Positions 7,134 to 22,862 of a stretch of DNA of 40,742 nucleotides are shown here, one piece after another (position 1 is the stretch's first letter; the number at the start of each line of letters is the position of its first letter). Location: the NCBI GenBank assembly GCA_009840525.1, contig VXNP01000004.1:1-40742 (forward strand), written 5' to 3'. The DNA is from Gammaproteobacteria bacterium (GTDB lineage Bacteria; Gemmatimonadota; Gemmatimonadetes; Longimicrobiales; Gaopeijiaceae). Under the pieces are notes generated by a model. It saw nothing but the letters and a program-made list of their open reading frames with translations. It was not told the DNA's origin and ran no database searches. Made by a program: the position numbers and the translations under genes.

Positions 7134-9812
7134 CTACCGCGACAGCCAGTAACTGAGCTTAACCATGAAGATGTTGTCCGGCATGACGCCGAAGAGTTCA
7201 CCGAGGTCCGAGTCGAAGTCGAATTGCCCGGTGCCGGCGCTGTGATTGCGGCCCTGCGACCAGACGAGGTAGAGCACGGACCCCGGCGAGTACTCCCACC
7301 TGAGCACCGTATTGGACCGGAACTGCTTGAAGCTGAAGTCGGGATTCCCGAACGACACCGGGCTCCCGCCCAGTTCGGCCAGGTAGCGGCTGTCCTCGGG
7401 GCGCGCCTCCACGGCTTCGAACCTGTCGGCGTAGAGCTCCGCGCGCGGGTCGGCCACCCGCTTGAAGTCGCTGTAGCTTCCGGACCCCACGAAGGGCTGG
7501 GCGTACACCTGCAGCGAGAGGTTGGGCGTGAAGGCGTAGTCCACGCGGGCGGTCAGCCCCACGGTGGTCTGGTTGATGCGCCCGAAGAGGTAGTTGGGGG
7601 CGTCGGCGTCGATGCGCCGGACCCACTGACGGTCGTCGAGATTGCGGTTGAGCATGGCGCCAAGGCTGAAAGTGGCTCTGCCCGATGGCCGCACGCTGAG
7701 CGTCGGCGCGACGCCCACCGACCACGAATCGCTTTCGGGACGGACGTTGCCCCAGGAGTTGACGTTGATCCTGACCGGCTTGCGGGCGTCGCTGCCGAAT
7801 CCCCCCCAGAAGTTGGTCTGCCCTTCCGTCCTGACGAGCGGTCCGCCCCGCAGCAGACCGTCGGACCAGGCCCCCAGCTCCTGGTTCACGCCCGCGTATC
7901 CGTACCAGAAGTTCCGGAGCTGGAAATTGACGTTGACGTTGCCTCCGGTCCCGGCGCGATCCCGATCGTAATTCCACACGTTCCAGGCGTTGAGGTTGAC
8001 GAACCAGTTGCGGAAGGGGCCCTGGGGCGTGGAATTGTGATATCCGCCCCAGACCCAGTGCACGAGGTAGTCGGCGTCGCGCTGGTAGCCCATGTCGTTG
8101 ACCTCGAAGCCGGGCGTGCGCGTCTGGAATCCGGTGCCGACGCGCCAGGGGCTTCCGGCGAACTTCATGATCCCGAAGTTGGCCGCGCCTCCCCCCAGGC
8201 TGGTGCGCTCGGCGTCGTAGCTCACATGCCCGGCGTCGGGCCGCTGGTAGTACCGGGCCGGCGCGCGCTGCGTGCGGGCGATGGCGTCCGGCGAACCTCG
8301 CACGTGCGAGCCGAGCACGTACCCCTCGAGCTGCCAGGCGTCGCCTCCGAAGCGGTGCCTGAAGTCGACCCCGCCGGTGTAGGCCGCTGACCTCAGCCCC
8401 AGGTCTTCGGCGACTCCGGCGTTCCGATTGACCGTGGTGCCGATGAACCCCACGGCCGAGCGGCCTTCCGCGAAGTCCTTCTGCAGCCTCAGGACCCCAT
8501 GGTTGGAGAACGGCTCTACGGGCTGCTGGAACGAACTGCCCGTTCCCGGCGCGATATCGGCGCGCTCTTCGGAGGTCATCGCGTGCAGCGCCCCGATCGA
8601 CCATCCGCCGGCCGTCTTTCCGGAGAGTTTCCAGGCGCCCAGGATCGTGGTTTGATCGTCGGCATCCGCAAACCCACCCTGCGGATCCGCCCATCCCTGG
8701 GGCGCGCGCCCGATCCTGCGGGAGTAGAACAACGATTCGTTGGCGCCGTCCCCGTCCCCGAGAGCGATGCCGAAATTGAAGATGCCCGCGCCCTCGACGA
8801 AGAACGGCCGCCGCTCCGGGAAGAACGTCTCGAACGCGGTCAGGTTCACCTGGGCGGGGTCTGCCTCTACCTGCCCGAAGTCGGGGTTGATGGTCACGTC
8901 GAGGGTGATGTCGGACGTCACCCCGTACTTGAGGTCGGCACCGACCGATCCCAGCGCGTCGTTCGGTCGATAGAAGGGGTTGGCCTCGTCTCCGGGGGCG
9001 CGCCTGAGGCTGGCCAGCGAATAGGGAAGGACCTCCAGCCGCCGGGGCGGGTCGAGGTCCCGCAGCCCGCGCAGCTCCCCGAAGCGCGACACGATGCCGC
9101 CGTCGGCGCGGGTGGTGGGCGCCCACGCCGAGAGTTCCTCGCGGCGCGCGAGGTGGCGCATGAAGTTGATGCCCCAAGTCTGTTCATCCCGGTCCCGGAA
9201 GCGCAGCTGCGAATAGGGGATGCGGAACTCGGCGCTCCATCCCGCTTCGTCGCGCGCGGTCGCGACATCCCAGACCGCGTCCCATCCCGAGTCCTCGCCG
9301 GTGTCGTCGAACCTGTAGACGTCCTGCTTCACGCCGGCGGGGTTGACCACGAACTGGAAGGCCGTGCGCCGGTCGAAGTAGGAGTCGATGACCACGCCCA
9401 GCAGATCCGAATACGACTGTTGATCGCGCCGCGTCAGCTGGCTCGCGATCTCGCCGGGACTGGTGTCGTGCGCCCGCATGAACACGAACAGCGCCGTGGC
9501 TCCGTAGAGAACGCGCGCCTCGGTGCGCTGGGTTGCGGGCTGGCCTTCGTCGGGTTCGAACTGGGTAAACCGGGTGGCCACGGCCGCCGCTCCCCACGCG
9601 GCCTCCTCCATGGCGCCGTCCACCGTGATGTCCGCGTCGGTGACGCGCGTCGCCGGGAGGATCGGCACCTCCTCGCTGCCACAGCATCCGGGCACGACCA
9701 GCGCGCCGCCCGGCGACGTTCCGGATCCCTGTTCCTGGGCCCGTATCTCCGCGCCGGCGCCCGCCAGCGCAAGCATCAGCCCAAGCATGTGCCCCACGTT
9801 TTTCCTCTTCAT
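7134..9812 (-). CDS. DUF5916 outer-membrane protein with N-terminal CBM9-like domain
   Basis: 892-residue secreted protein. A Sec signal (ending near AEIRAQ) is followed by a family-9 carbohydrate-binding-like sandwich (ITVDGAMEEAAWGAAAVATR, then VLYGATALFVFMRAHD) at about residues 55-240. Then comes the DUF5916 hallmark region: DVTINPDFGQVEADPAQVN, TFFPERRPFFVEGAG. The remaining 500 residues are rich in alternating aromatic strands, as in an outer-membrane barrel, ending in the hydrophobic strand FMVKLSYWLSR. The family's function is not established; such proteins are abundant in Gemmatimonadota, Acidobacteria and Bacteroidetes. GGGAGGGG precedes the ATG. A Cys pair (PGCCGSEE) just after the signal is unusual for this family, but the lipobox is absent. 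Confidence 0.88.
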   Translation of the reverse strand: MKRKNVGHMLGLMLALAGAGAEIRAQEQGSGTSPGGALVVPGCCGSEEVPILPATRVTDADITVDGAMEEAAWGAAAVATRFTQFEPDEGQPATQRTEARVLYGATALFVFMRAHDTSPGEIASQLTRRDQQSYSDLLGVVIDSYFDRRTAFQFVVNPAGVKQDVYRFDDTGEDSGWDAVWDVATARDEAGWSAEFRIPYSQLRFRDRDEQTWGINFMRHLARREELSAWAPTTRADGGIVSRFGELRGLRDLDPPRRLEVLPYSLASLRRAPGDEANPFYRPNDALGSVGADLKYGVTSDITLDVTINPDFGQVEADPAQVNLTAFETFFPERRPFFVEGAGIFNFGIALGDGDGANESLFYSRRIGRAPQGWADPQGGFADADDQTTILGAWKLSGKTAGGWSIGALHAMTSEERADIAPGTGSSFQQPVEPFSNHGVLRLQKDFAEGRSAVGFIGTTVNRNAGVAEDLGLRSAAYTGGVDFRHRFGGDAWQLEGYVLGSHVRGSPDAIARTQRAPARYYQRPDAGHVSYDAERTSLGGGAANFGIMKFAGSPWRVGTGFQTRTPGFEVNDMGYQRDADYLVHWVWGGYHNSTPQGPFRNWFVNLNAWNVWNYDRDRAGTGGNVNVNFQLRNFWYGYAGVNQELGAWSDGLLRGGPLVRTEGQTNFWGGFGSDARKPVRINVNSWGNVRPESDSWSVGVAPTLSVRPSGRATFSLGAMLNRNLDDRQWVRRIDADAPNYLFGRINQTTVGLTARVDYAFTPNLSLQVYAQPFVGSGSYSDFKRVADPRAELYADRFEAVEARPEDSRYLAELGGSPVSFGNPDFSFKQFRSNTVLRWEYSPGSVLYLVWSQGRNHSAGTGQFDFDSDLGELFGVMPDNIFMVKLSYWLSR

Positions 9813-10990: not shown

Positions 10991-13423
10991 TCAGAGGAGC
11001 GAGTCCAGATACAACGCGATCCAGAACTCGCGGGCGGGCCCGTTGAGGCCGTAGGAGATGTCGGTGCGCATGAGGCCGTCGAACAGGCTCGCGCCGACGC
11101 CGACGCCGAAGAGCAGACCGTCGTGTTCGAGTGCACGGGTTGGTGTCTCCACCGCAGCCGGACCGACCCGGTCGCGCCCGCCAAGGTCGTATCCCTCGCG
11201 ATGGTAGCGCCCCTCGTAGCTGGCCCACCCGGCATCGGTGAAGACGCTCAGCGTGCCGATGTCGTAGGTGCGGGCGACCTCCACCCGGCCACGGCCGAAG
11301 GACGGTCCCCAGACCGCCGACGGCGGCTGTCCGCGTAGCGACCGGGTGCCGCCCAGGAACCAGGCCCGCTGGGCGGTGGCGTCGCCGAACGTGGTCCCGC
11401 CTGCGAGCTCGGCGCCCATGCGCCACCTGCGGCCCGACAGCGGCGCGGCCACCCGCAGCACGGCGCTGGCCCGACCGTAGCTGGCGGCGTCACCCCCGCC
11501 GGAGGACCACCGCCGGGCGGCCTGGCCGTAGAGCTCGACCCCGACCTGGGTGAGATACGGATCTTCGCCCCACCAGGGCGACAGCCGGATCTCGGTTCCC
11601 AGTTCGTCGACCGGGTCAGCCGCCACGTTGGGCCGGAAGTCCCAGTTGTCGTCGAGCATGTGGAAGAGGGCGAACCCCGCCTGAGTCGGCGCGGCCTCCT
11701 GGCGTTCCGCGTAGGTCCTTACCTCGAACCACTGGCGGGCGACGGCCGGGGGACGCCAGATCAGGTCGACGCCCGCGGCCTGGAAGTACTCGCCCTCGTC
11801 TCGTCCCAGAAAGACGGCATTGAGCGAATTGCCGAACCCGAGATGCCCGGCGCGCGGGCTGGTGGAGACGAGCTGGCGGTAGACCCCGAGCGCCAGGCGC
11901 CGGCGCAGCGTCTCCCGGCCGATCTCGACGCGCGCCTTGGGTTCGAGGTCCGAGACGCCGAGGAATGCGCTGGTGTTCAGGGTGTACGTTCCGGCCAGGT
12001 CGGTGCGGAAGTCCAGTCCGGCGGCCAGCCCCTCGACCCGGTTGTAGCGGATCAGCCCGGGCTGGCCCCATCCCCAGTCGAGCGCCCAGGGTATCCCGGG
12101 CACATCCGGAGCGGCCAGATCGGCCAGGCTCTCGAAGTATTCGCCGACTTGGTCACCGGACGGAAAGCCCACCGCCTCGTCCCAGATGGGAGGCGGGAGT
12201 TCCGGGCTGGTCAGCACCAGGGTACGCTCCCGGGGCGCGATGTAGAACGCGTCCCGCTCCGCGGCGAAGTCGCTCTCCTCGGCACTCTCGTATTCCACAC
12301 CGCCCTCCTGAGAGAGCAGGCGCGCCACGAAGGCCATCGCCTCGGCCCGTGTCTCGAAGTGCCGTTCGATGAGTTCCGGGGCCGCGACCGGTTCGGGCCT
12401 CTCGGCGTCCCGCGCGGCGGCCTCGGCCTCGGCTCGCTCGACGTCGGCGCGCGTGGTAACCGACTCCAACTGGTACGAGACATCCATCTCCAACGGAAAC
12501 TTGATGATGCCGGCGGCGATCTGCCCCTCGAAGCGCATGTAGTGGGGAAGCCAGACCTCGAAGTTCCAGAGGCTGTAGTCGACCGCGATCATGGAGAGAT
12601 CGAACGTCCAGGGCTTGAAGACCCCGGGCACGAACCGGAACGAGCCTGCCTCCTGCTCCTCCTGGAGTTCCTGCAGATCGCGCATGAAGTCGAACTGGCG
12701 GCTCAGCCGGTAGACCGCCCGTACCAGTGCCCCGGATTCGGGCTCGATCCAGAGCGTGCCCACGATGAGTTGGATGTCCGCCTCACGGGGGATCACGTCC
12801 AGTTGCACCGCGCGCAGCCGCCGACCGTCGGCGAAGGAGAGCGTCAGCGTGTCGCCGCTGGCATATCGATAGCGTTGGTCCGCGCCCGTGGCCAGCGGGT
12901 GTTCGATGGCGCTGCCGGGTTCGAACTCGGCCTCGTTGGCGCCGAAGAACAGGCGGTCGCCCCCGGGATCGAAGGGTTCATCGAAGGCCAGGTCGTCGAG
13001 CCAGTCCATGTCGCCCTCGCTGCGCGCCGTCGACCAGCCGGGATACTGCGACCTGGCGCCCAGAACCTGCACCACCGCGTCGTATTCATGATCCCAGAAC
13101 GCGCGCACGGCGGTCTCGTCCCGGTAGATGACCCGGTCCTTGAGCGGAGCCCGGATGGCGGCCGCGATCCGCTGCCGGATGACCGCCTGATAGCGCAGGA
13201 CCGATTGCTCCACGGATCTCCAGTTCGCCTGCGCGGCTTCGAAGATGGTTCGCGCGTCCGGGTCGGCGAAGGCGTCTTCGGCGAGCGGCGCACCCTCCGG
13301 CTCCTCCTGCGCCCGAACCGGATGCGGGTGCGCGGAGAGAGCACCGAGGCAGGCGATGCCGAGCGGAAGAAGCGCCCGCCACCCGCCGAACTCCCAGCGG
13401 CCGGTCCACCCGCGGCTCTTCAC
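10991..13423 (-). CDS. Outer-membrane protein with C-terminal Omp85-like barrel
   Basis: 810-residue secreted protein of no firmly known function. Signal peptide ends near PHPVRAQEE. Residues about 40-400 form a mixed domain with a YRDETAVRAFWDHEYDAVV segment and a beta-rich part resembling an outer-membrane lipoprotein-sorting fold (DTLTLSFADGRRLRAVQLDVIPRE). From about 500 on, regular amphipathic strands lead to FLGGTRSLRGQ with Arg697, matching the conserved Arg-Gly loop of surface-antigen/Omp85 barrels, and the final strand ends EFWIALYLDSLL. The GTG start at 13423 shares GTGA with the stop of the repeat protein upstream, so the two are likely co-translated and may act together. The open frame runs further upstream, but inside the other gene. 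Confidence 0.8.
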   Translation of the reverse strand: MKSRGWTGRWEFGGWRALLPLGIACLGALSAHPHPVRAQEEPEGAPLAEDAFADPDARTIFEAAQANWRSVEQSVLRYQAVIRQRIAAAIRAPLKDRVIYRDETAVRAFWDHEYDAVVQVLGARSQYPGWSTARSEGDMDWLDDLAFDEPFDPGGDRLFFGANEAEFEPGSAIEHPLATGADQRYRYASGDTLTLSFADGRRLRAVQLDVIPREADIQLIVGTLWIEPESGALVRAVYRLSRQFDFMRDLQELQEEQEAGSFRFVPGVFKPWTFDLSMIAVDYSLWNFEVWLPHYMRFEGQIAAGIIKFPLEMDVSYQLESVTTRADVERAEAEAAARDAERPEPVAAPELIERHFETRAEAMAFVARLLSQEGGVEYESAEESDFAAERDAFYIAPRERTLVLTSPELPPPIWDEAVGFPSGDQVGEYFESLADLAAPDVPGIPWALDWGWGQPGLIRYNRVEGLAAGLDFRTDLAGTYTLNTSAFLGVSDLEPKARVEIGRETLRRRLALGVYRQLVSTSPRAGHLGFGNSLNAVFLGRDEGEYFQAAGVDLIWRPPAVARQWFEVRTYAERQEAAPTQAGFALFHMLDDNWDFRPNVAADPVDELGTEIRLSPWWGEDPYLTQVGVELYGQAARRWSSGGGDAASYGRASAVLRVAAPLSGRRWRMGAELAGGTTFGDATAQRAWFLGGTRSLRGQPPSAVWGPSFGRGRVEVARTYDIGTLSVFTDAGWASYEGRYHREGYDLGGRDRVGPAAVETPTRALEHDGLLFGVGVGASLFDGLMRTDISYGLNGPAREFWIALYLDSLL

Positions 13424-14775
13424 GGGCCCTCCGGGCTGCCGGGTGCCGCCGGGACCGAGTCGAAGCGCACCTCGCGGATATCGTCCCACGGGATCAGACG
13501 CCACCCCCGGCCCCCGTCGCTCATCCCGGAGTCCTGCGCGCCCGCGACCATCACGCCCTTGTTGTCCGAACTCACATCTCGGGCTCCATCGAGTGCCAGC
13601 CTGCGCCCGTCCGCGAGGGTCACCGCGGCACCGTCCTCCTCGCCGGGCACAATTCGGCGGACGAATCCGAATTCGATGTCGTATTCGATCCCCTCCGCTT
13701 CGCCGTTCAGGATTTCCCAGCTGCCCGCCTCGTCCGCGTCCCAGCGCAGTTCGCCCTGGACTTCCTCTCCCTCGCGCGTGACCACTGTGCCGGCGAGCAG
13801 GCGGCCCCCGTCGAACCGGCTGCGGTCGCCGCGAGTCTCCGACTGTCCACCCGACCGGTCGCCCTCGCCTGCAGTCTCCGGGGCCTCGTGGAAACGCACC
13901 TCCAGCAGATGCTCCCACGGCACCACGACCACCCCGAGCCCGGGATCGGCGATTCGGACTCCCCGGTTGCGCCGGTCGACGTCGTTGGAGCCCTCGAGCT
14001 CCAGCGCGCCGCCGTCACGCAGCTCCACTCGAGTGCGGCGGTTCACTGGCGTGAGCGAACGGATGCGCTCGAAACGGACCTGCCGCTCGCTGGGACGACG
14101 CGTCTCCCGGCCGTCGAGCACGTCGGACTCGAGAATCTCGTCCTGGTCCCAGGCCAGGTAGCCGGTGAACCGGCGGCCATCCCGATCCATGGTGGTGCCG
14201 TACAGCCGCCGTGCAGCGGGGAGTGCCGTCGCGGGAGGCGCGGAGAACACCACCCGTTCCATTTCGTCCCACTCGACTTCCACCTCTGCCTCCCCCGGCG
14301 CCTCGACGTGCACATCGGGGGAAGAGTTCCCGCGGCTGCCTCCACGGGGCTCGAGCCGGAGGCGCGTGCCGGAGCGCAGCGTCAGTTCCGCATGATCACC
14401 GTCGAGCACGACCAGCGAATCCAGGTGGCCGAAACGCACGCCGGAGAGAACTTCCATTGGAAAGTCGGGATCGACCTCGTCCCAGGTGATGCGATAGCCG
14501 CGCAGCTCGATGGTGCGCGTTGCGCGCTCACGGTCATGGGCCTCCAGCCACGCGAAATAGTTCTCCTCGGGAAGTTCCTTGAGCCCCTCGAGGATGTCGG
14601 CCCAGTTGGCTGCGGTCTCGTCCCAGCGAATGAAGCCGCTGTGCACTTCGCCTTCGGTGGTGTGCACCCGGCCCCAGATGCGGTCCGCATTCTGGGCGGA
14701 CGCGGGCACTGCAGCGAATGCCGAGAGAACGAGGATCCGGCGGAGAAGCGTCCGGCTTTGCGCTTGCGAGAGCAT
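13420..14775 (-). CDS. Secreted protein with three tandem internal repeats
   Basis: 451-residue protein I do not recognise as a named family. A signal peptide (LRRILVLSAFAAVPASAQ) is followed by three copies of one unit at roughly residues 33-180, 190-299 and 327-440. Each unit opens with a G-x-V/T-T/D-x-x-G-E/R strand and a RWDE/AWDQ/RWDA turn, continues to an 'I/V-L-x-G' step, then a strand-rich stretch, and closes with an 'EWDEMERVVF / PWEHLLEVRF / PWDDIREVRF' strand. The close of each unit looks like a small all-beta domain. The ATG at 14775 has AGGA five bases upstream; an ATG at 14877 would add 34 unlikely residues. Coupled by GTGA to the barrel gene downstream, so a periplasmic partner of that barrel is a reasonable guess. 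Confidence 0.8.
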   Translation of the reverse strand: MLSQAQSRTLLRRILVLSAFAAVPASAQNADRIWGRVHTTEGEVHSGFIRWDETAANWADILEGLKELPEENYFAWLEAHDRERATRTIELRGYRITWDEVDPDFPMEVLSGVRFGHLDSLVVLDGDHAELTLRSGTRLRLEPRGGSRGNSSPDVHVEAPGEAEVEVEWDEMERVVFSAPPATALPAARRLYGTTMDRDGRRFTGYLAWDQDEILESDVLDGRETRRPSERQVRFERIRSLTPVNRRTRVELRDGGALELEGSNDVDRRNRGVRIADPGLGVVVVPWEHLLEVRFHEAPETAGEGDRSGGQSETRGDRSRFDGGRLLAGTVVTREGEEVQGELRWDADEAGSWEILNGEAEGIEYDIEFGFVRRIVPGEEDGAAVTLADGRRLALDGARDVSSDNKGVMVAGAQDSGMSDGGRGWRLIPWDDIREVRFDSVPAAPGSPEGP

Positions 14776-16104: not shown

Positions 16105-17796
16105 CTAATCAAGCCCGAACACGAAGAGCGTGCCGCCGGCCGAGCTCACGATGCGCTGCCGGCCGTCGACCTCGTAGGACATCGGGCCGCTGCGCACGGC
16201 GCCGCCCGACTGGAAGTTCCACAAGGGCTCGCCGGTCTCCGCGTCCAGGGCGAAGATGTTGCCTTCGTTGTCCCCGCCGAAGACGAGGTCGCCGGCGGTC
16301 GCCATCGCACCCGACCAGGGTGGGGAGAGCAGCGGGAACTCCCACACCAGCTCGCCGGTCAGGGCGTCGAGCGCCTTGATGGCTCCGCTGGCCTCCTCGC
16401 CCCGCAGCGCCTGCTCGCCGCCGCCCGTGTAGGGCTGTCCGGGCACGTACTCGACATCCGCCTTGAAATAGACGGCGCCCATGATGCGGGTCGGCTGGTA
16501 GAAGAGGCCGGTCCGGGGGCTGTAGCTGGGGCTGAACCAGTTGGCCGCGCCCTGCAGGCTGGGCCAAACGAGCACGCCCTCCTCGGTGGGGTCGGTGCCC
16601 GGAATCACGATCGGGCGCCCGTTCTCGTCCAGGCCCTCGGCCCAGGTCTGCTTCGAGTATTCCCGCCCGTGGAGGAATTCCCCGGTTTCGCGGTCGAGGA
16701 CGTAGTAGAAGGCGTTCCGGTTGGCGGTCACCACCAGCTTGCGCGGCTCGCCCTCCCATTCGGCGTCCAGCAGCACCTGGATCTGGTTGGCGTCCCAGTC
16801 GTGGGTGTCGTGGGGCGTGAACTGGAAGTACCAGATCATTTCCCCGGTGTCGGGATCGAGGGCGAGCAGGCAGTCCGTGTACAGGTTGTCGCCGGGGCGG
16901 ACGTCGCCGTTCCAGTCGGGCGCCGGGTTGCCGATGGGCCAGTAGAGCAGGTCGAGTTCGGGATCGTAGGAGCCGGTGAGCCAGGTGGACCCGCCCCCGG
17001 TCTCCCAGCTGTTGCCGCCCCAGGTCTCGCTCCCGGGCTCGCCGGGCGCGGGGATGGTGTAGGTGCGCCACGCAAGCTCGCCGGTCTCGGCGTCGTAGGC
17101 GTCGATGTAGCCGCGAACCCCGGCTTCCGCCCCGGACACGCCCACGATCACCTTGTCCTTGACGGTCAGCGGGGCCAGGGTGAGGGAGAAGCCAATCGCG
17201 TTGTCGCCCACCTCGACGTCCCAGCGCACGGCGCCCGAGCGTGCGTCGAGGGCGACCAGGTGCGCGTCCAGCGTTCCCACGAACACCGTGGAGTCGAGCA
17301 CCGCGACCCCCCGGTTCACGCGCGGGAAGCCGATGTTGAGCACGTCCGGCCCCATCTCCGGGGACCAGGTCCAGAGCTGGCGGCCGGAGCGCGCGTCCAG
17401 GGCGCTCACGGTGCTGGGCGGCTCGGTCACGTAGAGGATGCCGTCCACCGCGATGGGCGTGGTCTCTATGATGCCGTCGTCCATCTGATAGGCCCAGAGC
17501 ACCCTGAGGTCGCCGACGTTGGAGCGGTCGATCCGGTCCAGTCGGGAGTAGCGGTGCGACGCGTAGTTGCCCGAATAGGTGAGCCAGTTGTGGGGCTCGG
17601 CGTCGGCGTTGACGAGGCGCTCGAAGGGAACATTGGTCTGGTCGGGAGTGCCTTCGGGGGCGTCGCCTTCCGGGGCCGCCTGGCATCCCGGAACGATGAT
17701 CGCGCATGCCAGCAGTCCGTGGATGATTCCGCGCGGGCCGCGGGGCTCCGGGCGGGCAGGGCACCTTGAGGGCCGAATAGCAGCGAACCGGATCAT
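16105..17796 (-). CDS. PQQ-dependent dehydrogenase lipoprotein, DWD metal motif
   Basis: 563-residue quinoprotein propeller, predicted lipoprotein (ACAIIVPGC, Cys near residue 39). Propeller W-motifs are clear (ALDARSGRQLWTW, ALDPDTGEMIWYF, ALDAETGEPLWNF). Metal ligands: Glu in SGAEAGVRG, Asn in WPIGNPAPDWN, catalytic Asp333 with Asp335 two residues later in HDTHDWDANQ. That D-x-D resembles the DYD of lanthanide methanol/ethanol dehydrogenases. The vicinal Cys pair seen in the first PQQ enzyme is missing: the equivalent region reads GFPRVNRG. I chose ATG 17796 because GGAGG lies six bases before it; ATG 17802 would share ATGA with the cytochrome stop. Co-transcribed downstream of a diheme cytochrome c, its likely electron acceptor. 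Confidence 0.9.
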   Translation of the reverse strand: MIRFAAIRPSRCPARPEPRGPRGIIHGLLACAIIVPGCQAAPEGDAPEGTPDQTNVPFERLVNADAEPHNWLTYSGNYASHRYSRLDRIDRSNVGDLRVLWAYQMDDGIIETTPIAVDGILYVTEPPSTVSALDARSGRQLWTWSPEMGPDVLNIGFPRVNRGVAVLDSTVFVGTLDAHLVALDARSGAVRWDVEVGDNAIGFSLTLAPLTVKDKVIVGVSGAEAGVRGYIDAYDAETGELAWRTYTIPAPGEPGSETWGGNSWETGGGSTWLTGSYDPELDLLYWPIGNPAPDWNGDVRPGDNLYTDCLLALDPDTGEMIWYFQFTPHDTHDWDANQIQVLLDAEWEGEPRKLVVTANRNAFYYVLDRETGEFLHGREYSKQTWAEGLDENGRPIVIPGTDPTEEGVLVWPSLQGAANWFSPSYSPRTGLFYQPTRIMGAVYFKADVEYVPGQPYTGGGEQALRGEEASGAIKALDALTGELVWEFPLLSPPWSGAMATAGDLVFGGDNEGNIFALDAETGEPLWNFQSGGAVRSGPMSYEVDGRQRIVSSAGGTLFVFGLD

Positions 17797-17798
17797 GC

Positions 17799-18620
17799 TC
17801 ATCCTCCGAGGCTGGCCAGGTATGCGATGAGGTTGTCGATGTCCTCGCCCGAGAGGCTTGCCGTGGCGGGCATGAGGGAATGCCCGAAGCGCTTTTCGAG
17901 CTCGGCCAGTTCGGCCTTGCGCAGCGACACGATCGAACCCGTTGCGGTGATGAGCTGCACGGTGAACGCGTCCTCGTTGGCGCGCATGCCTTCGTAGACG
18001 GTGCCGTCGCGGGTGACGGCCCGCAGGGGCAGGTACTGGGCGAACCCGCTGCGCGCCCCCGAGCGGAAGACCGGAAGTTCCGCCGAGGGATCGACCAGCG
18101 AGGCACGCAGATACTCCGGGCCCCGGCGCATGCCGATGCCCGTCAGTTCGGGGCCGATCCCGACCCCGCGCCCCTCGACGATGTGGCACGAGAAGCACAC
18201 GCCCGTGGTCTCGAAGACCTCGCGGCCGCGCTCGGGATCGCCGGGGATCTCCACGAGCTGCGCCTGGCGGAGCGAGATGACGTGGGCGGCGACCAGGGCG
18301 GCTTCCTCGTCAGGGAGGATGGTTGCGCGCAGGCCCGGCATGCCGGTGCCGGGAATGCCGTCGCGGATGATGTCGACGACCGCTGCGTGGTCCGGTGCGC
18401 GCGGCAGGCGGCTGACCGCCAGCCCCGGCCCCTCGCCGCCCATCCCGAGGACGCCGTGGCAGCGCCCGCAGTGGGCCTGGTAGAGCCGCTGTCCGCGCTC
18501 CAGTTCCTCACCGGAGAAGGCGCGCGCGTCCTGGGCGGCCAGAGGGGATGCAGCCAGGGCCACCGCCGCGCCGAAGACCGCGAGACCGAAGCGGATGTTG
18601 TTGCTTGCTCCGTGCCGCAT
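17799..18620 (-). CDS. Diheme cytochrome c, periplasmic
   Basis: 273-residue exported cytochrome. Signal peptide ends near ASPLAAQ. Two heme c sites: CGRCH (C51, C54, H55) and CFSCH (C142, C145, H146). Candidate axial Met residues are in GIPGTGMPGL for the first domain and SLMPATASLS for the second. The second domain has the 'VGIGPELTGIGMRR ... LVDPSAEL' pattern of the heme-binding domain common in planctomycete and acidobacterial dehydrogenase systems. GGAGG lies six bases before the ATG. The PQQ dehydrogenase follows with overlapping codons, so this is most likely the electron acceptor for that enzyme. Confidence 0.92.
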   Translation of the reverse strand: MRHGASNNIRFGLAVFGAAVALAASPLAAQDARAFSGEELERGQRLYQAHCGRCHGVLGMGGEGPGLAVSRLPRAPDHAAVVDIIRDGIPGTGMPGLRATILPDEEAALVAAHVISLRQAQLVEIPGDPERGREVFETTGVCFSCHIVEGRGVGIGPELTGIGMRRGPEYLRASLVDPSAELPVFRSGARSGFAQYLPLRAVTRDGTVYEGMRANEDAFTVQLITATGSIVSLRKAELAELEKRFGHSLMPATASLSGEDIDNLIAYLASLGG

Positions 18621-18825
18621 AGCCGCCTCCGGGAACGTTGCTGTTGACCGCGCCAGCACACTGGACGAGCGCCGGTGGTGGCGGCGCGTTCCGATCCTCA
18701 TTCTAGGACGAGCGGCGGAGATGCGCACACGCGGGATTCCGTCCGCCGCACCGTGGACGTGCGCGCGGAGCGCCGGCCTCCGAGGCGTGGCAGATCCGGG
18801 AGCCGGCGAGACCAGAAGTTTGCGG

Positions 18826-19757: not shown

Positions 19758-22700
19758 ATGATGGACAACAGATTGTGGATGCGCATCCAGCCGTCGGCGA
19801 AGACCCGGGCCGCGGCTGCCGTGGCTTGCCTGCTCGCCCTCTCGCTCCCGCTCGCATGCGCGCCACCCGCGCGGGACGTCGACGGCGACGCCCTGCCCCT
19901 CACCTGGGAGAACATCTTCACCCGCAACCGTGGCGCCCGTCAGGCCGCGCTCTCGCCGGACGGGGCATGGGTCGCGGTCAGCGCGAGCACGCCGGAATTC
20001 TCGGGGGTTTTTCTGGTGGCGGCGGATGGTGAATCCGGGCCTGCGCCGTGGGTGGAGGGCTCGTCGCCGGTCTGGTTCGGCGACGGGTCGGGCATCGTCT
20101 TCTCGCGCGGCGGAGACCTGTGGCGGGCGGCGGTGGGATCGAGCGAGCCGACCCGCATCACCGACGACCCGGCGGACGAGCGGGCCGCGCGGCCGTCGCC
20201 GGACGGCGGCACCATTGCCTTCTACAGCGGGCGCTCGGGTCACCAGGACATCTGGACCGTGCCGGCCGACGGTTCCGCTCCGCCGAAGCAGCTCACGCGC
20301 GCCTCCATGGCGGCCGACGACTTCCGCTTCGCCCCCGCTTGGTCGCCGGACGGGACGCACGTCGCCTACTACTCCAACCGGAGCGACTACTGGGAGGACG
20401 ACATCTGGGTGGTGGAGGTGGAGACCGGCGCGGAGCGGCAGATCTCCAGCGGTCTGATGGCCTCTTCCACGCCGGTCTGGTCGCCGGACGGATCGCGCAT
20501 CGCCCTGCTCGGCACCTCCAAGGACGAGTACTGGTACGAGGATCTCGCCTACATCTACCTCCTCGACCCGCAGGCGGGGACGGAGGAGGTGGTTCCCATG
20601 CAGATCCACGCCACCGACTGGCTGCACAACCACACCGTCACCTGGTCGGGCGACGGCTCCGAGCTCTTCTTCCCCTATCACGAGCGCGCCGAGGTGGAGT
20701 TGTGGCGGGTGCCGGCGGACGGGGGCGTCGCCACCCGGGTGACGAACATGGGCGGGTCCTTCCGCGCCTACCACGCGACCCCCGATGGCTCCGCGTTCGT
20801 CTTCCTGCGTTCGACTTCGACGCGCGGGACGGAGGTCGACTACGTTGCCGCCGAGGGTGGGGCGGCGCGCCGGCTCACCCGTTTCTCGACCCGGTGGCGG
20901 GGACTCGTGGAGGCGGAGGAGGTGAGCTACCGCAGTTGGGACGGCCTCTACATCCAGGGCTTCCTCTTCCGCCCTCCGGGATTCGCCGAGGGCGGAGATG
21001 CGACAGCATCAGCCGGCACTGCGACATATCCCGCGCTGGTCATGGTCCATGGGGGCGGCACCAACTCCTATCTCAAGGGGCTGAGCCTCACCGAGCAGCA
21101 TCTGGCGCAGCTCGGGTACGTGGTGCTGGCCGTCAACTACCGCGGCGGTTCCGGCTTCGGGCGCGAGTTCCAGGATCTGGGCGTGGGGGACTGGGCCAAC
21201 GGACAGGCGCTCGACGCCGCCGCTGCCGCCGACTTCCTCCGGGCGCAGCCCTGGTCCAACGGGAAGGCCGGCATCTACGGCTACAGCTACGGGGGCATTC
21301 AGAGCATGGCCGCGGTCGCCCGCGCACCCGACGCCTTCGATGCCGCCGTGCCCATGGCGGGGATCTACGACTTCGCCGACGCCTACACCAACGCGGATCG
21401 GCTGGGGAAGATCTTCATCCGGACCGGACACGGGGGCGCACCCGGGGACCGCCCCGAAGTCTACGCCATCAGCAACACCCTGGCGCGCGTACCGAACGTG
21501 GTCACGCCCACCCTCATCATGCACGGGGAAGAAGACGTGCGTGCCCCGTATCGGCAGTACGAACTCGCGGTGGAGATCCTTGACAGGGAAGGGAAGGTCT
21601 TCGAGAGCCACTCCTATCCCGGAGAGCCGCACGGCTTCCGCGATCCCATGAACCGGGTGGACATGTATCGCAGGCTCGAAGCGTGGTTTGATCGCTGGCT
21701 GAAGGAGGATGCGCCGGATGCGCAGTCCACCGCGGCGGGAACCGGCGTTCCGGCCTGGCCCGGCGAGGAATGGCCGGTCTCCACCCCAGAGGCGGAGGGG
21801 CTGGATCCCACGGCCATCGATTCGCTCCTTGCCGACATCGACGCCGGCCGGTTCGGGCTCATCGACCACTTCCTGCTCATTCGTCGCGGCCACGTGATCG
21901 CGGATCGCCACTGGGACCACGGCGAGGAGTATGCGCGCATCCTGGCCGAGCAGGAGGATACCGCGAGCCACCCCTACAACTACGATCATCCCGACTGGCA
22001 CCCGTACTACCGCGACACCGGACTGCACACGCTCCAGTCGGTCACCAAGAGCGTGACCTCGGTCGCCTTCGGCATCGCGGTCGACGCGGGCCACATCGAC
22101 GGCGTCGACGCTCCGGCGTGGCCGTTCCTCGCCGCCTACGGCCCGGATCTCGGCGAGCCGGCGCGCGCGAACGCGACGCTGGAGGACTTCCTCACCATGC
22201 GCAGCGGCATCGACTGGGCGATTCCCGGCCAGACCTATGCCGACGACACCCATCCGACCAGCGAGCTCGAGGCGAGCGAGGCATGGATCGACTATGTCGT
22301 GCGGCGTCCCGTCGGCACCGAGCCCGGAACCCGCTTCGACTACAACGACGGGGTGAGCGTCCTCCTGGGGAAGATCCTGCGCGAGGCCACCGGGCAGCGC
22401 GCCGACGCCTGGGCGGAGGAACATCTGTTTCGTCCCATCGGCATCCGCGACTACTACTGGAAGATCACCCCGGACGGAGAGGCGGACACCGAGGGCGGGC
22501 TCTATCTCGCGCCCCATGACCTGGCGCGAATCGCGTACCTGATGTTGCGCGGGGGCGAATGGGACGGGCGGCGGATCGTGTCGCGCGCATGGGTGCGGGC
22601 GTCCACCTCGCCGGTCATCCCCGACCTCAACCCCGGCAACGACCGTGACGACGGAGGCTACGGCTACCAGTGGTGGGTGCCGTTTCACGAGGATGGGGAG

Positions 22701-22862
22701 ACCCGGGTCTTTTCCGGAAACGGCTATGGCGGCCAGTTCCTGCACGTCGTGCCGGAGCACGATCTGATCGTGCTCTTCAATGGGTGGACGTTGCACACGG
22801 GCGCGGAGTTTTCCAGCTGGACCGCGCTCCAGGACCGCATCCTGCCCGCCATCCGCGACTGA
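19758..22862 (+). CDS. Secreted S9 prolyl-oligopeptidase-family peptidase fused to S12 beta-lactamase-like hydrolase
   Basis: 1034-residue exported protein with two complete serine-hydrolase parts. The leader (AVACLLALSLPLAC) may be a signal peptide or lipoprotein signal; the residue at -3 is Pro, so the lipobox is not canonical. Residues about 50-380 form a TolB-like propeller (LSPDGAWVAVS, PSPDGGTIAFYSG, WSPDGTHVAYYSN). The alpha/beta-hydrolase domain has Ser510 in GYSYGG, Asp593 in EEDVRAP and His625 in EPHGFRDP. After a linker (about 650-680), an S12 domain carries SVTKS (Ser761, Lys764), a FDYNDG box where YxN has Asp instead of Asn, and a GNGYGGQ box. GGAG upstream fits ATG 19758 or 19761. 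The RuBisCO-like gene starts seven bases after the stop. Confidence 0.9.
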   Translation: MMDNRLWMRIQPSAKTRAAAAVACLLALSLPLACAPPARDVDGDALPLTWENIFTRNRGARQAALSPDGAWVAVSASTPEFSGVFLVAADGESGPAPWVEGSSPVWFGDGSGIVFSRGGDLWRAAVGSSEPTRITDDPADERAARPSPDGGTIAFYSGRSGHQDIWTVPADGSAPPKQLTRASMAADDFRFAPAWSPDGTHVAYYSNRSDYWEDDIWVVEVETGAERQISSGLMASSTPVWSPDGSRIALLGTSKDEYWYEDLAYIYLLDPQAGTEEVVPMQIHATDWLHNHTVTWSGDGSELFFPYHERAEVELWRVPADGGVATRVTNMGGSFRAYHATPDGSAFVFLRSTSTRGTEVDYVAAEGGAARRLTRFSTRWRGLVEAEEVSYRSWDGLYIQGFLFRPPGFAEGGDATASAGTATYPALVMVHGGGTNSYLKGLSLTEQHLAQLGYVVLAVNYRGGSGFGREFQDLGVGDWANGQALDAAAAADFLRAQPWSNGKAGIYGYSYGGIQSMAAVARAPDAFDAAVPMAGIYDFADAYTNADRLGKIFIRTGHGGAPGDRPEVYAISNTLARVPNVVTPTLIMHGEEDVRAPYRQYELAVEILDREGKVFESHSYPGEPHGFRDPMNRVDMYRRLEAWFDRWLKEDAPDAQSTAAGTGVPAWPGEEWPVSTPEAEGLDPTAIDSLLADIDAGRFGLIDHFLLIRRGHVIADRHWDHGEEYARILAEQEDTASHPYNYDHPDWHPYYRDTGLHTLQSVTKSVTSVAFGIAVDAGHIDGVDAPAWPFLAAYGPDLGEPARANATLEDFLTMRSGIDWAIPGQTYADDTHPTSELEASEAWIDYVVRRPVGTEPGTRFDYNDGVSVLLGKILREATGQRADAWAEEHLFRPIGIRDYYWKITPDGEADTEGGLYLAPHDLARIAYLMLRGGEWDGRRIVSRAWVRASTSPVIPDLNPGNDRDDGGYGYQWWVPFHEDGETRVFSGNGYGGQFLHVVPEHDLIVLFNGWTLHTGAEFSSWTALQDRILPAIRD

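Follow-up and report, generated by a model that had tools for sequence, protein, structure and literature searches.

An overlapping gene pair of Gemmatimonadota encoding a three-repeat secreted-type protein and a DUF5686-like Omp85-type barrel protein, tentatively read as an outer-membrane module

Results

A secreted-type protein and a barrel protein are encoded by overlapping genes

We analyzed a 40,742-nucleotide stretch of DNA (the window) from a genome deposited as Gammaproteobacteria bacterium and placed by GTDB in the Gemmatimonadota (assembly GCA_009840525.1, contig VXNP01000004.1). Two of its genes, here called rep and bar, lie on the minus strand with rep upstream and bar downstream.

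13420..14775, minus strand: rep, three-repeat secreted-type protein of 451 aa, from ATG at 14775 to TGA at 13420 (open reading frame and sequence)
14692..14775, minus strand: N-terminus of rep, signal-peptide-like, residues 1-28 (sequence read by eye)
10991..13423, minus strand: bar, DUF5686-like Omp85-type barrel protein of 810 aa with a GTG start at 13423 (profile comparisons)
13420..13423, minus strand: GTGA, the four-base overlap of the rep stop and the bar start (sequence)
13427..13432, minus strand: GGAGGG, ribosome-binding-like site for bar within the 3' end of rep, three bases before the GTG (sequence)

A first-pass annotation of this DNA had described the GTGA overlap between a repeat-protein gene and a barrel gene, and the sequence bears it out. 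Of 15 distinct related places, 12 likewise had a four-base overlap of the two genes when start codons were picked by script.

Rep consists of three repeats

14236..14679, minus strand: repeat 1, residues 33-180, longer by a segment that repeats 2 and 3 lack (alignment)
13879..14208, minus strand: repeat 2, residues 190-299, the unit used for the structure model (alignment)
13456..13797, minus strand: repeat 3, residues 327-440 (alignment)

The three tandem units had been proposed with exactly these limits, and they align with one another above all shuffles. The local alignment scores were 66 (repeats 1 and 2), 159 (repeats 2 and 3) and 78 (repeats 1 and 3), against shuffle maxima of 64, 64 and 65; none of the 2000 shuffles for each comparison reached the observed score, the margin for repeats 1 and 2 (66 versus 64) being small. 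When profiles were built from 21 sequences (the window protein and 20 relatives), the profile-profile E-values between repeats ranged from 5.6e-24 to 4.8e-37. The openings RWDE, AWDQ and RWDA were read correctly in the first pass; the closing step W-x5-VRF, claimed for all three, holds for repeats 2 and 3, whereas repeat 1 has W-x5-VVF. An internal duplication within each repeat was considered and rejected, the two halves failing to align. No Pfam or NCBIfam model matched the rep of the window above its cut-off.

The model of the repeat unit (repeat 2; pLDDT 69.9, pTM 0.66) suggests that the fold is probably a small beta barrel, an assignment that we regard as uncertain. A Foldseek search with this model gave no match at E 0.001. 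The best structural matches were 4uqy and 4uqz (Z 6.1, rmsd 3.0, 97-98 residues), and at Z 3-4 there were numerous matches to chains of LSm, Hfq and small lipoproteins, all below the trusted level; any likeness of the repeat to the ImpE fold and to LSm/SH3-like small barrels consists of these matches. The ImpE fold (HsiE1/TagJ) is described in PMC4239648 as a 12-stranded barrel. ImpE was rejected as a sequence relative of the repeat: the comparison (with L135, L137, L138 and L146 left out for lack of a usable frame) scored 21.6 against a maximum of 16.7 in 60 column shuffles, yet the two profiles aligned across 20 columns only, with a prob of 7.4. The bacterial PH domain bPH_6 (PF10756) matched 14 of the 21 rep proteins at E 10 (best E 5.3e-9) through a shared W-x-x-(I/L/F) closing step. 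Because the rep of the window reached 18.5 bits against a cut-off of 22 and its best stretch covered 16 residues of the 73-position model, no PH fold is established for rep.

Bar is a divergent DUF5686 relative with insertase-type motifs

12458..13264, minus strand: N-domain of bar, roughly residues 54-322, a homologue of the DUF5686 N-domain (profile comparison)
10994..12136, minus strand: beta-barrel region at the C-terminus, roughly residues 430-810 (Pfam matches of relatives to Omp85 and ShlB; TamA/BamA profiles; DUF5686)
11327..11338, minus strand: L6 signature L-R-G-Q, residues 696-699 (column counts in 54 barrels)
11228..11242, minus strand: strand-13 signature F-T-D-A-G, residues 728-732 (column counts in 54 barrels)

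The earlier view of the barrel as Omp85-like agrees with the Pfam, profile and motif matches. PF01103 (Omp85) matched 18 of the 19 distant relatives of bar, with L095 exceeding the cut-off, and 5 of the 12 near ones; the bar of the window gave no PF01103 match, its assignment by this family coming through relatives only. Profile searches also matched TamA and BamA, the TamA entry of the PDB reaching E 1e-6. In comparison with DUF5686 (PF18939), represented by 10 proteins of the phylum above the Pfam cut-off, N-domain and barrel together aligned over 611 columns (prob 99.8, E 2.1e-28). Residues 40-345 alone gave a prob of 97.7 and E 1.9e-12, with a score of 101.5 against a maximum of 28.4 in 40 column shuffles, and residues 430-810 a prob of 99.1. 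These profile comparisons indicate that bar is a divergent DUF5686 relative within the Omp85 superfamily. It shares homology in both N-domain and barrel with DUF5686 and differs by the coupled repeat protein and by the absence of a PF18939 match at E 10 in the window protein; among 12 near relatives the best E was 0.017, and L131 reached 21.2 bits against the Pfam cut-off of 39.2. A literature search on DUF5686 and PF18939 gave no paper and hence no function. LolA found no support as a relative of the N-domain, the comparison giving a prob of 2.9 (11 LolA-matching proteins, some rows apparently in wrong frames), and a structure model of bar from five close sequences had a mean pLDDT of 27.8.

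The Omp85 motifs are given in PMC4490367 as (V/I)RG(Y/F) in L6 and (F/G)xDxG in strand 13, the latter being F-x-D-x-G in TamA and BamA versus G-x-D-x-G in FhaC. The SLRGQ that the first pass had noticed sits at residues 695-699, and the L6 of the window protein, L-R-G-Q, keeps R-G and deviates in the outer letters. In the 54 barrels (L114 was left out), R was found in 53 and G in 51 at L6, and at strand 13 F in 54, D in 53 and G in 50. Bar thus carries the insertase-type lid-lock residues, R-G and F-x-D-x-G, in common with BamA and TamA. It differs from these in its DUF5686-type N-domain, its separate repeat protein and the absence of any POTRA family match, by sequence, among 31 barrels of the family (12 near and 19 distant).

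These results bear on the idea that bar exports rep to the surface or the medium, as a two-partner-like system on a POTRA-less barrel, which we consider unlikely. In its favor are the signal-peptide-like start of rep, the gene order and overlap, by which an Omp85-type barrel and its secreted-type partner form a two-gene unit as in FhaC/ShlB with TpsA, and the ShlB/FhaC profile, which with a best E of 5.4e-7 matched 16 of the 19 distant barrels over the C-terminal barrel common to all Omp85 proteins. The pair differs from two-partner secretion in having no POTRA match, F in place of G in strand 13, and a 451-aa repeat protein that showed no Pfam match to a haemagglutinin or TPS family at E 10 in any of 21 rep proteins.

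The pair is kept across genera

The first pass knew of no named system with such a pair, and none turned up in the libraries and literature that we searched. The pair is also not confined to this genome. We found rep in 66 places in 45 Gemmatimonadota genomes, with bar directly downstream in at least 41 of the 66 places and at least 39 of the 45 genomes (pieces of one gene were merged, and neighbours were taken from the barrels among the matches listed). The remaining 25 places had no barrel downstream among the matches listed; the 11 that were read all belonged to the anchored class described below, and the others were fragments, contig ends or unread. Conversely, 10 of 51 high-scoring barrels among the matches listed lacked a rep directly upstream, three of them being second barrels in tandem. 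The paired barrels formed one clade (SH-aLRT 99) in a quick tree of 54 barrels, and the pairing looks like one gain followed by some losses.

The bar family is much wider than rep (271 versus 45 of 298 genomes). Since bar occurs in many genomes without a detected rep, rep has the look of a helper added to bar, not of its sole cargo; this mostly partnerless distribution also counts against export of rep by bar.

It is quite improbable, in our judgment, that the two genes are mere neighbours, a DUF5686-like barrel co-transcribed with an unrelated secreted protein upstream and sharing no function with it. Compact genomes often have overlapping genes, and distant barrels do occur without rep; against this, the pair stays together across many genera while the gene neighbourhoods around it change. 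No third gene was conserved, neighbour families being common within groups of loci and not between groups. In some loci, the window included, the overlap filter of this gene calling removed rep or bar; other analyses of these loci showed both genes. Six neighbour proteins were scanned, and the types found (M1 peptidase, FAA hydrolase, ApaG, alpha/beta hydrolase) had no clear link to the pair. Searches of viral contigs with the rep alignment, the bar alignment and the Rufibacter protein (see below) found no relatives, phage records held no rep relative, and plasmids gave one match for rep and none for a distant barrel.

Rep and bar diverge together, rep faster

Distances of rep and bar correlated at 0.93-0.96, and at 0.75-0.90 after the distances of a flanking gene were removed; in each of five controls with 11-16 loci, 0 of 2000 permutations reached the partial correlation. 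The correlation exceeds that of flanking genes, a further point against mere neighbours. Rep evolves faster, with a mean distance of 0.50-0.53 versus 0.33-0.36 for bar. Between the window and L003, L004 and L006, dN/dS was 0.30-0.31 for rep and 0.12-0.15 for bar, the order being reversed against L002 (0.14 and 0.18). Within the genus, rep and bar occur as old alleles that recombine, and the flanks on either side are more conserved. Alleles of this kind are frequent in surface proteins and, with the fast divergence of rep and its higher dN/dS in all but the L002 comparison, favor a rep exported through bar. Locus L005 is a mosaic, its rep belonging to one allele type and the bar that follows to the other. 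Any fit between rep and bar must therefore tolerate mixed allele types, and the separability of the two genes speaks for unconnected neighbours.

Relatives of rep occur in other forms

Two other classes of rep relatives were assigned by eye: an anchored class (13 loci, one clade, support 98), whose proteins begin with a short conserved motif, mostly (E)D(A/V)(K/R)N, ahead of a membrane span, and a lipoprotein-like class (2 loci, one clade, support 99); L175 was left out of this tree. The plasmid match, in Rufibacter tibetensis, is a homologue with three repeats (E 1e-24, 26% identity over 97%) that lies 16 bases before a His_kinase gene, followed by a LytTR regulator. The repeat module is therefore not bound to barrels. 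As judged from their sequences, the anchored, lipoprotein-like and kinase-linked forms would all place the repeats outside the cytoplasm; the first two suggest the periplasm, which argues against release of rep through bar.

The kinase-linked form and the conserved start of the anchored class are what would be expected if rep served outside the cytoplasm as a sensing or ligand-binding module, reporting to a co-encoded membrane protein or regulating it, be that protein the barrel, the LytS-type kinase of Rufibacter or its own anchor in the anchored class B. We hold this to be doubtful: the Rufibacter case is a single example from the Bacteroidota, the six neighbour proteins scanned at Gemmatimonadota pairs included no kinase, and no known ligand-binding family of Pfam matched any of the 21 rep proteins, that of the window included, above the cut-off.

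Discussion

Our best explanation, held tentatively and at somewhat below even confidence, is that rep and bar form a two-gene outer-membrane module in which rep serves an insertase-type barrel as its accessory subunit in the periplasm. We favor this role for rep over two-partner secretion. It is preferred because the forms of the rep relatives would all lie outside the cytoplasm, because bar is of the insertase type and because bar is more widely distributed than rep. The first-pass annotation had suggested a periplasmic chaperone or cargo carrier feeding the barrel in the manner of two-partner secretion. Its periplasmic helper remains the best reading of the sequences, while the two-partner manner is opposed by the missing POTRA and TPS matches, the F-x-D-x-G motif and the many barrels without rep.

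In the proposed module, bar would be an outer-membrane protein whose DUF5686-type N-domain faces the periplasm. Rep would be exported via Sec and remain periplasmic, its three small beta-barrel units forming a chain, and it could bind the N-domain of bar or the clients of bar. There it may do part of the job that POTRA domains and the BAM lipoproteins do for BamA, by receiving or holding client chains or by gating the barrel, and translational coupling would supply rep and bar in matched amounts.

Several observations count against rep as a helper. Rep outpaces bar in divergence, as a surface protein might, and at least some rep places lack a listed barrel and some barrels lack rep; the ShlB/FhaC matches, the kinase-linked form in Rufibacter and the L005 mosaic point the same way.

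Omp85 proteins are usually described with client-handling POTRA domains. A bolder form of the helper reading, which we think rather unlikely, is that the Gemmatimonadota have in this pair a second machine for outer-membrane insertion or export, built on a POTRA-less insertase-type Omp85 barrel, in which the POTRA role has moved to a separate, exchangeable chain of three small beta-barrel repeats with diversifying alleles. If true, an insertase-type barrel without detectable POTRA domains and with its own secreted partner would allow one to ask whether an unrelated protein can do POTRA work, and the pair would offer a first handle on DUF5686.

A repeat protein gene overlapping an Omp85-type barrel gene

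The window is the entire contig C153 of a 3.99-Mb genome in 155 contigs, and two adjoining genes on its minus strand form the pair analyzed here:

13420-14775, minus strand, rep, three-repeat secreted-type protein (451 aa)
10991-13423, minus strand, bar, DUF5686-like barrel protein (810 aa), downstream of rep

The end of rep and the start of bar share the sequence GTGA, with GGAGGG three bases upstream of the GTG, and both N-termini, read by eye, resemble Sec signal peptides. Neither window protein gave a match over the Pfam cut-off or a notable NCBIfam or PDB sequence match. Among 21 rep proteins, bPH_6 was a weak Pfam match in 14 (best E 5.3e-9), and YcxB, DUF2442, NifT and DUF903 matched weakly in at most four each. 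A scan of named genomes with rep, which as a one-protein query reaches close relatives only, returned five loci (L002-L006), all from metagenome-assembled genomes. For L005 and L006 the record titles read Gemmatimonadetes and BD2-11 clade; the title of L002-L004, Gammaproteobacteria, looks like a misnaming, given a rep identity of 92-96%. At L002:5127-7711 the bar gene is broken in that assembly into two pieces in different frames; relatives have intact copies. Other genes were noted in the window:

7134-9812, minus strand, DUF5916 protein with a weakly CBM9-like start, on the far side of the SDR gene that comes after the pair
16105-18659, minus strand, PQQ-dehydrogenase-type protein, with a cytochrome c type gene ahead of it
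19758-22862, plus strand, single 1034-aa frame with prolyl-oligopeptidase (Peptidase_S9) and Beta-lactamase family domains

The barrel protein belongs to the Omp85 superfamily

We compared bar with its near and distant relatives. Among 12 near barrels, 5 (bar itself not among them) matched Pfam Omp85, as did 18 of 19 distant ones; of these 19, 16 matched ShlB and 10 DUF5686. Against the PDB, the distant-barrel profile returned TamA (E 1e-6), then Toc75, CdiB and BamA, aligned to the final portion of the barrel, and one galectin row by chance. When the bar family was compared with ten proteins of the phylum over the DUF5686 cut-off, 611 columns were aligned (probability 99.8), and the N-terminal domain alone reached a probability of 97.7 and a score of 101.5 vs at most 28.4 in 40 shuffles. 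These matches and alignments, all at the sequence level, indicate that bar is a divergent relative of DUF5686 within the Omp85 superfamily.

In Omp85 proteins, an L6 arginine pairs by salt bridge with an aspartate of strand 13, whose motif is F-x-D-x-G in TamA/BamA and G-x-D-x-G in FhaC, according to PMC4490367. Among 54 barrels, the L6 arginine and the strand-13 aspartate were each kept in 53 and the strand-13 phenylalanine in all 54, so that the lid-lock is of the insertase type (F-x-D-x-G), unlike that of FhaC. No POTRA family match was found by Pfam in the 12 near and 19 distant barrels. PMC4104836 mentions an Omp85 class without an N-terminal extension; bar, in contrast, possesses one. 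In the open-licence literature we found no paper on DUF5686 (PF18939) or naming Gemmatimonadota together with Omp85, and two that name Gemmatimonadetes together with Omp85; descriptions may exist elsewhere.

The repeat unit is probably a small beta barrel

The three tandem units proposed in the first-pass annotation align with one another beyond shuffles, and profile comparison agrees. Between units, each half aligns with its counterpart, the first with the first and the second with the second; no match was found by alignment between the two halves within units. Unit 2 was modelled with 18 unit sequences taken from six genomes; the model has eight strands (mean pLDDT 69.9, pTM 0.66; below 50 at residues 24-44). 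Its best structural match is the ImpE fold (Z 6.1); chains of LSm, Hfq and small lipoproteins come next (Z 3-4), and all these matches are below the trusted level. The model suggests that the unit is probably a small beta barrel.

The pair is conserved in most genomes with rep

Of 298 Gemmatimonadota genomes, 271 matched the bar profile, with three candidates scored per genome, and 45 matched the rep profile: 42 of the window's family, two of its order and one of its class (a short, weak match). At least 41 of 66 typed rep places, in 39 genomes, have bar, among the barrel matches listed, no more than 400 bases downstream in the same orientation. Ten of 51 typed high-scoring barrels lack rep directly upstream, three of them being second barrels in tandem. 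The four-base overlap recurs in 12 of 15 distinct places (16 rows, L036 duplicating L006; bar start chosen by script), the others overlapping by 11, 26 and 37. Adjacency was confirmed in 20 further loci, picked because both genes already showed in the profile lists. The pair stays constant while its gene neighbours vary between groups of genera. No rep was found beside 16 distant barrels in the loci read: the upstream gene is on the opposite strand in nine and on the same strand at a gap of at least 57 bases in six, and the last (L095) lies at a contig end.

On a quick, midpoint-rooted tree of 54 barrels, 33 paired and two tandem barrels form a single clade (support 99), inside which the unpaired L112 and L113 also sit; the paired/unpaired label changes three times, vs a shuffled mean near 16. 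The number of rep losses may be higher than this tree shows, because its loci were hand-chosen and four further unpaired barrels were left out. Rep distances correlate with bar distances (0.93-0.96, or 0.75-0.90 after removal of a flanking gene's distances; none of 2000 permutations reached the observed value in any of five controls), which fits co-evolution or joint inheritance. Tandem orders rep-bar-rep-bar-bar and rep-bar-bar occur at L118 and L125, where one rep may serve two barrels. At L175:5699-6922, an in-frame stop splits a rep with no adjoining barrel, as if the unit were in decay.

Forms of rep without a barrel

Thirteen barrel-less loci, classed by eye, carry a short start followed by a membrane span ahead of the repeats:

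L046, L047, L048, L050, L051, L053, L177-L183, membrane-anchored rep forms

Their conserved start usually reads (E)D(A/V)(K/R)N, and together they form one clade (support 98). Two relatives with a lipoprotein-like start (by eye) form another (99), and L043 and L044 carry secreted-type rep without a barrel. Outside the phylum, a plasmid of Rufibacter tibetensis (Bacteroidota) encodes a homologue, likewise of three repeats, that aligns with 97% of the query at 26% identity (E 1e-24):

L174:7007-10151, homologue region of the Rufibacter tibetensis plasmid

The homologue is secreted-type if started at an in-frame ATG 15 codons upstream of the annotated start. It lies 16 bases upstream of a LytS-type histidine kinase gene (His_kinase, E 1e-20), which is followed by a LytTR regulator. 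The rep family thus extends past Gemmatimonadota, and its neighbour can be other than a barrel. Pectinesterase and polysaccharide lyase genes are annotated around it.

Allele exchange and the relation of rep to bar

We compared the window with four other species of its genus (L005, L037-L039). The dS of bar was 0.76-0.81 in all four and that of rep 0.78-0.85 against L037-L039, vs 0.14-0.46 for six flanking genes, about 1.7 to 6 times the flanking divergence. L005 is a mosaic: its rep is close to the window's allele (dS 0.15) and its bar is of the other allele type (dS 0.80), the switch falling at about window positions 13575-13376; L005 may be an assembly chimera. With their high dS and this mosaic, rep and bar behave like old alleles that have been swapped between better-conserved flanking regions.

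Past gene order and homology, we infer every mechanistic step. We tentatively favour rep as a periplasmic helper of bar. That rep is instead a passenger exported by bar would agree with the ShlB matches of the barrels, the fast divergence of rep and the allele pattern, but it is unlikely, and the helper is preferred to it because the lock is of the insertase type, many genomes have bar without rep, and rep has anchored and lipoprotein-like relatives. A role of rep as a sensing module is slightly less probable than export, and the absence of any joint function is improbable. The exchange of rep and bar alleles suggests a changing partner, for example phages, hosts or clients.
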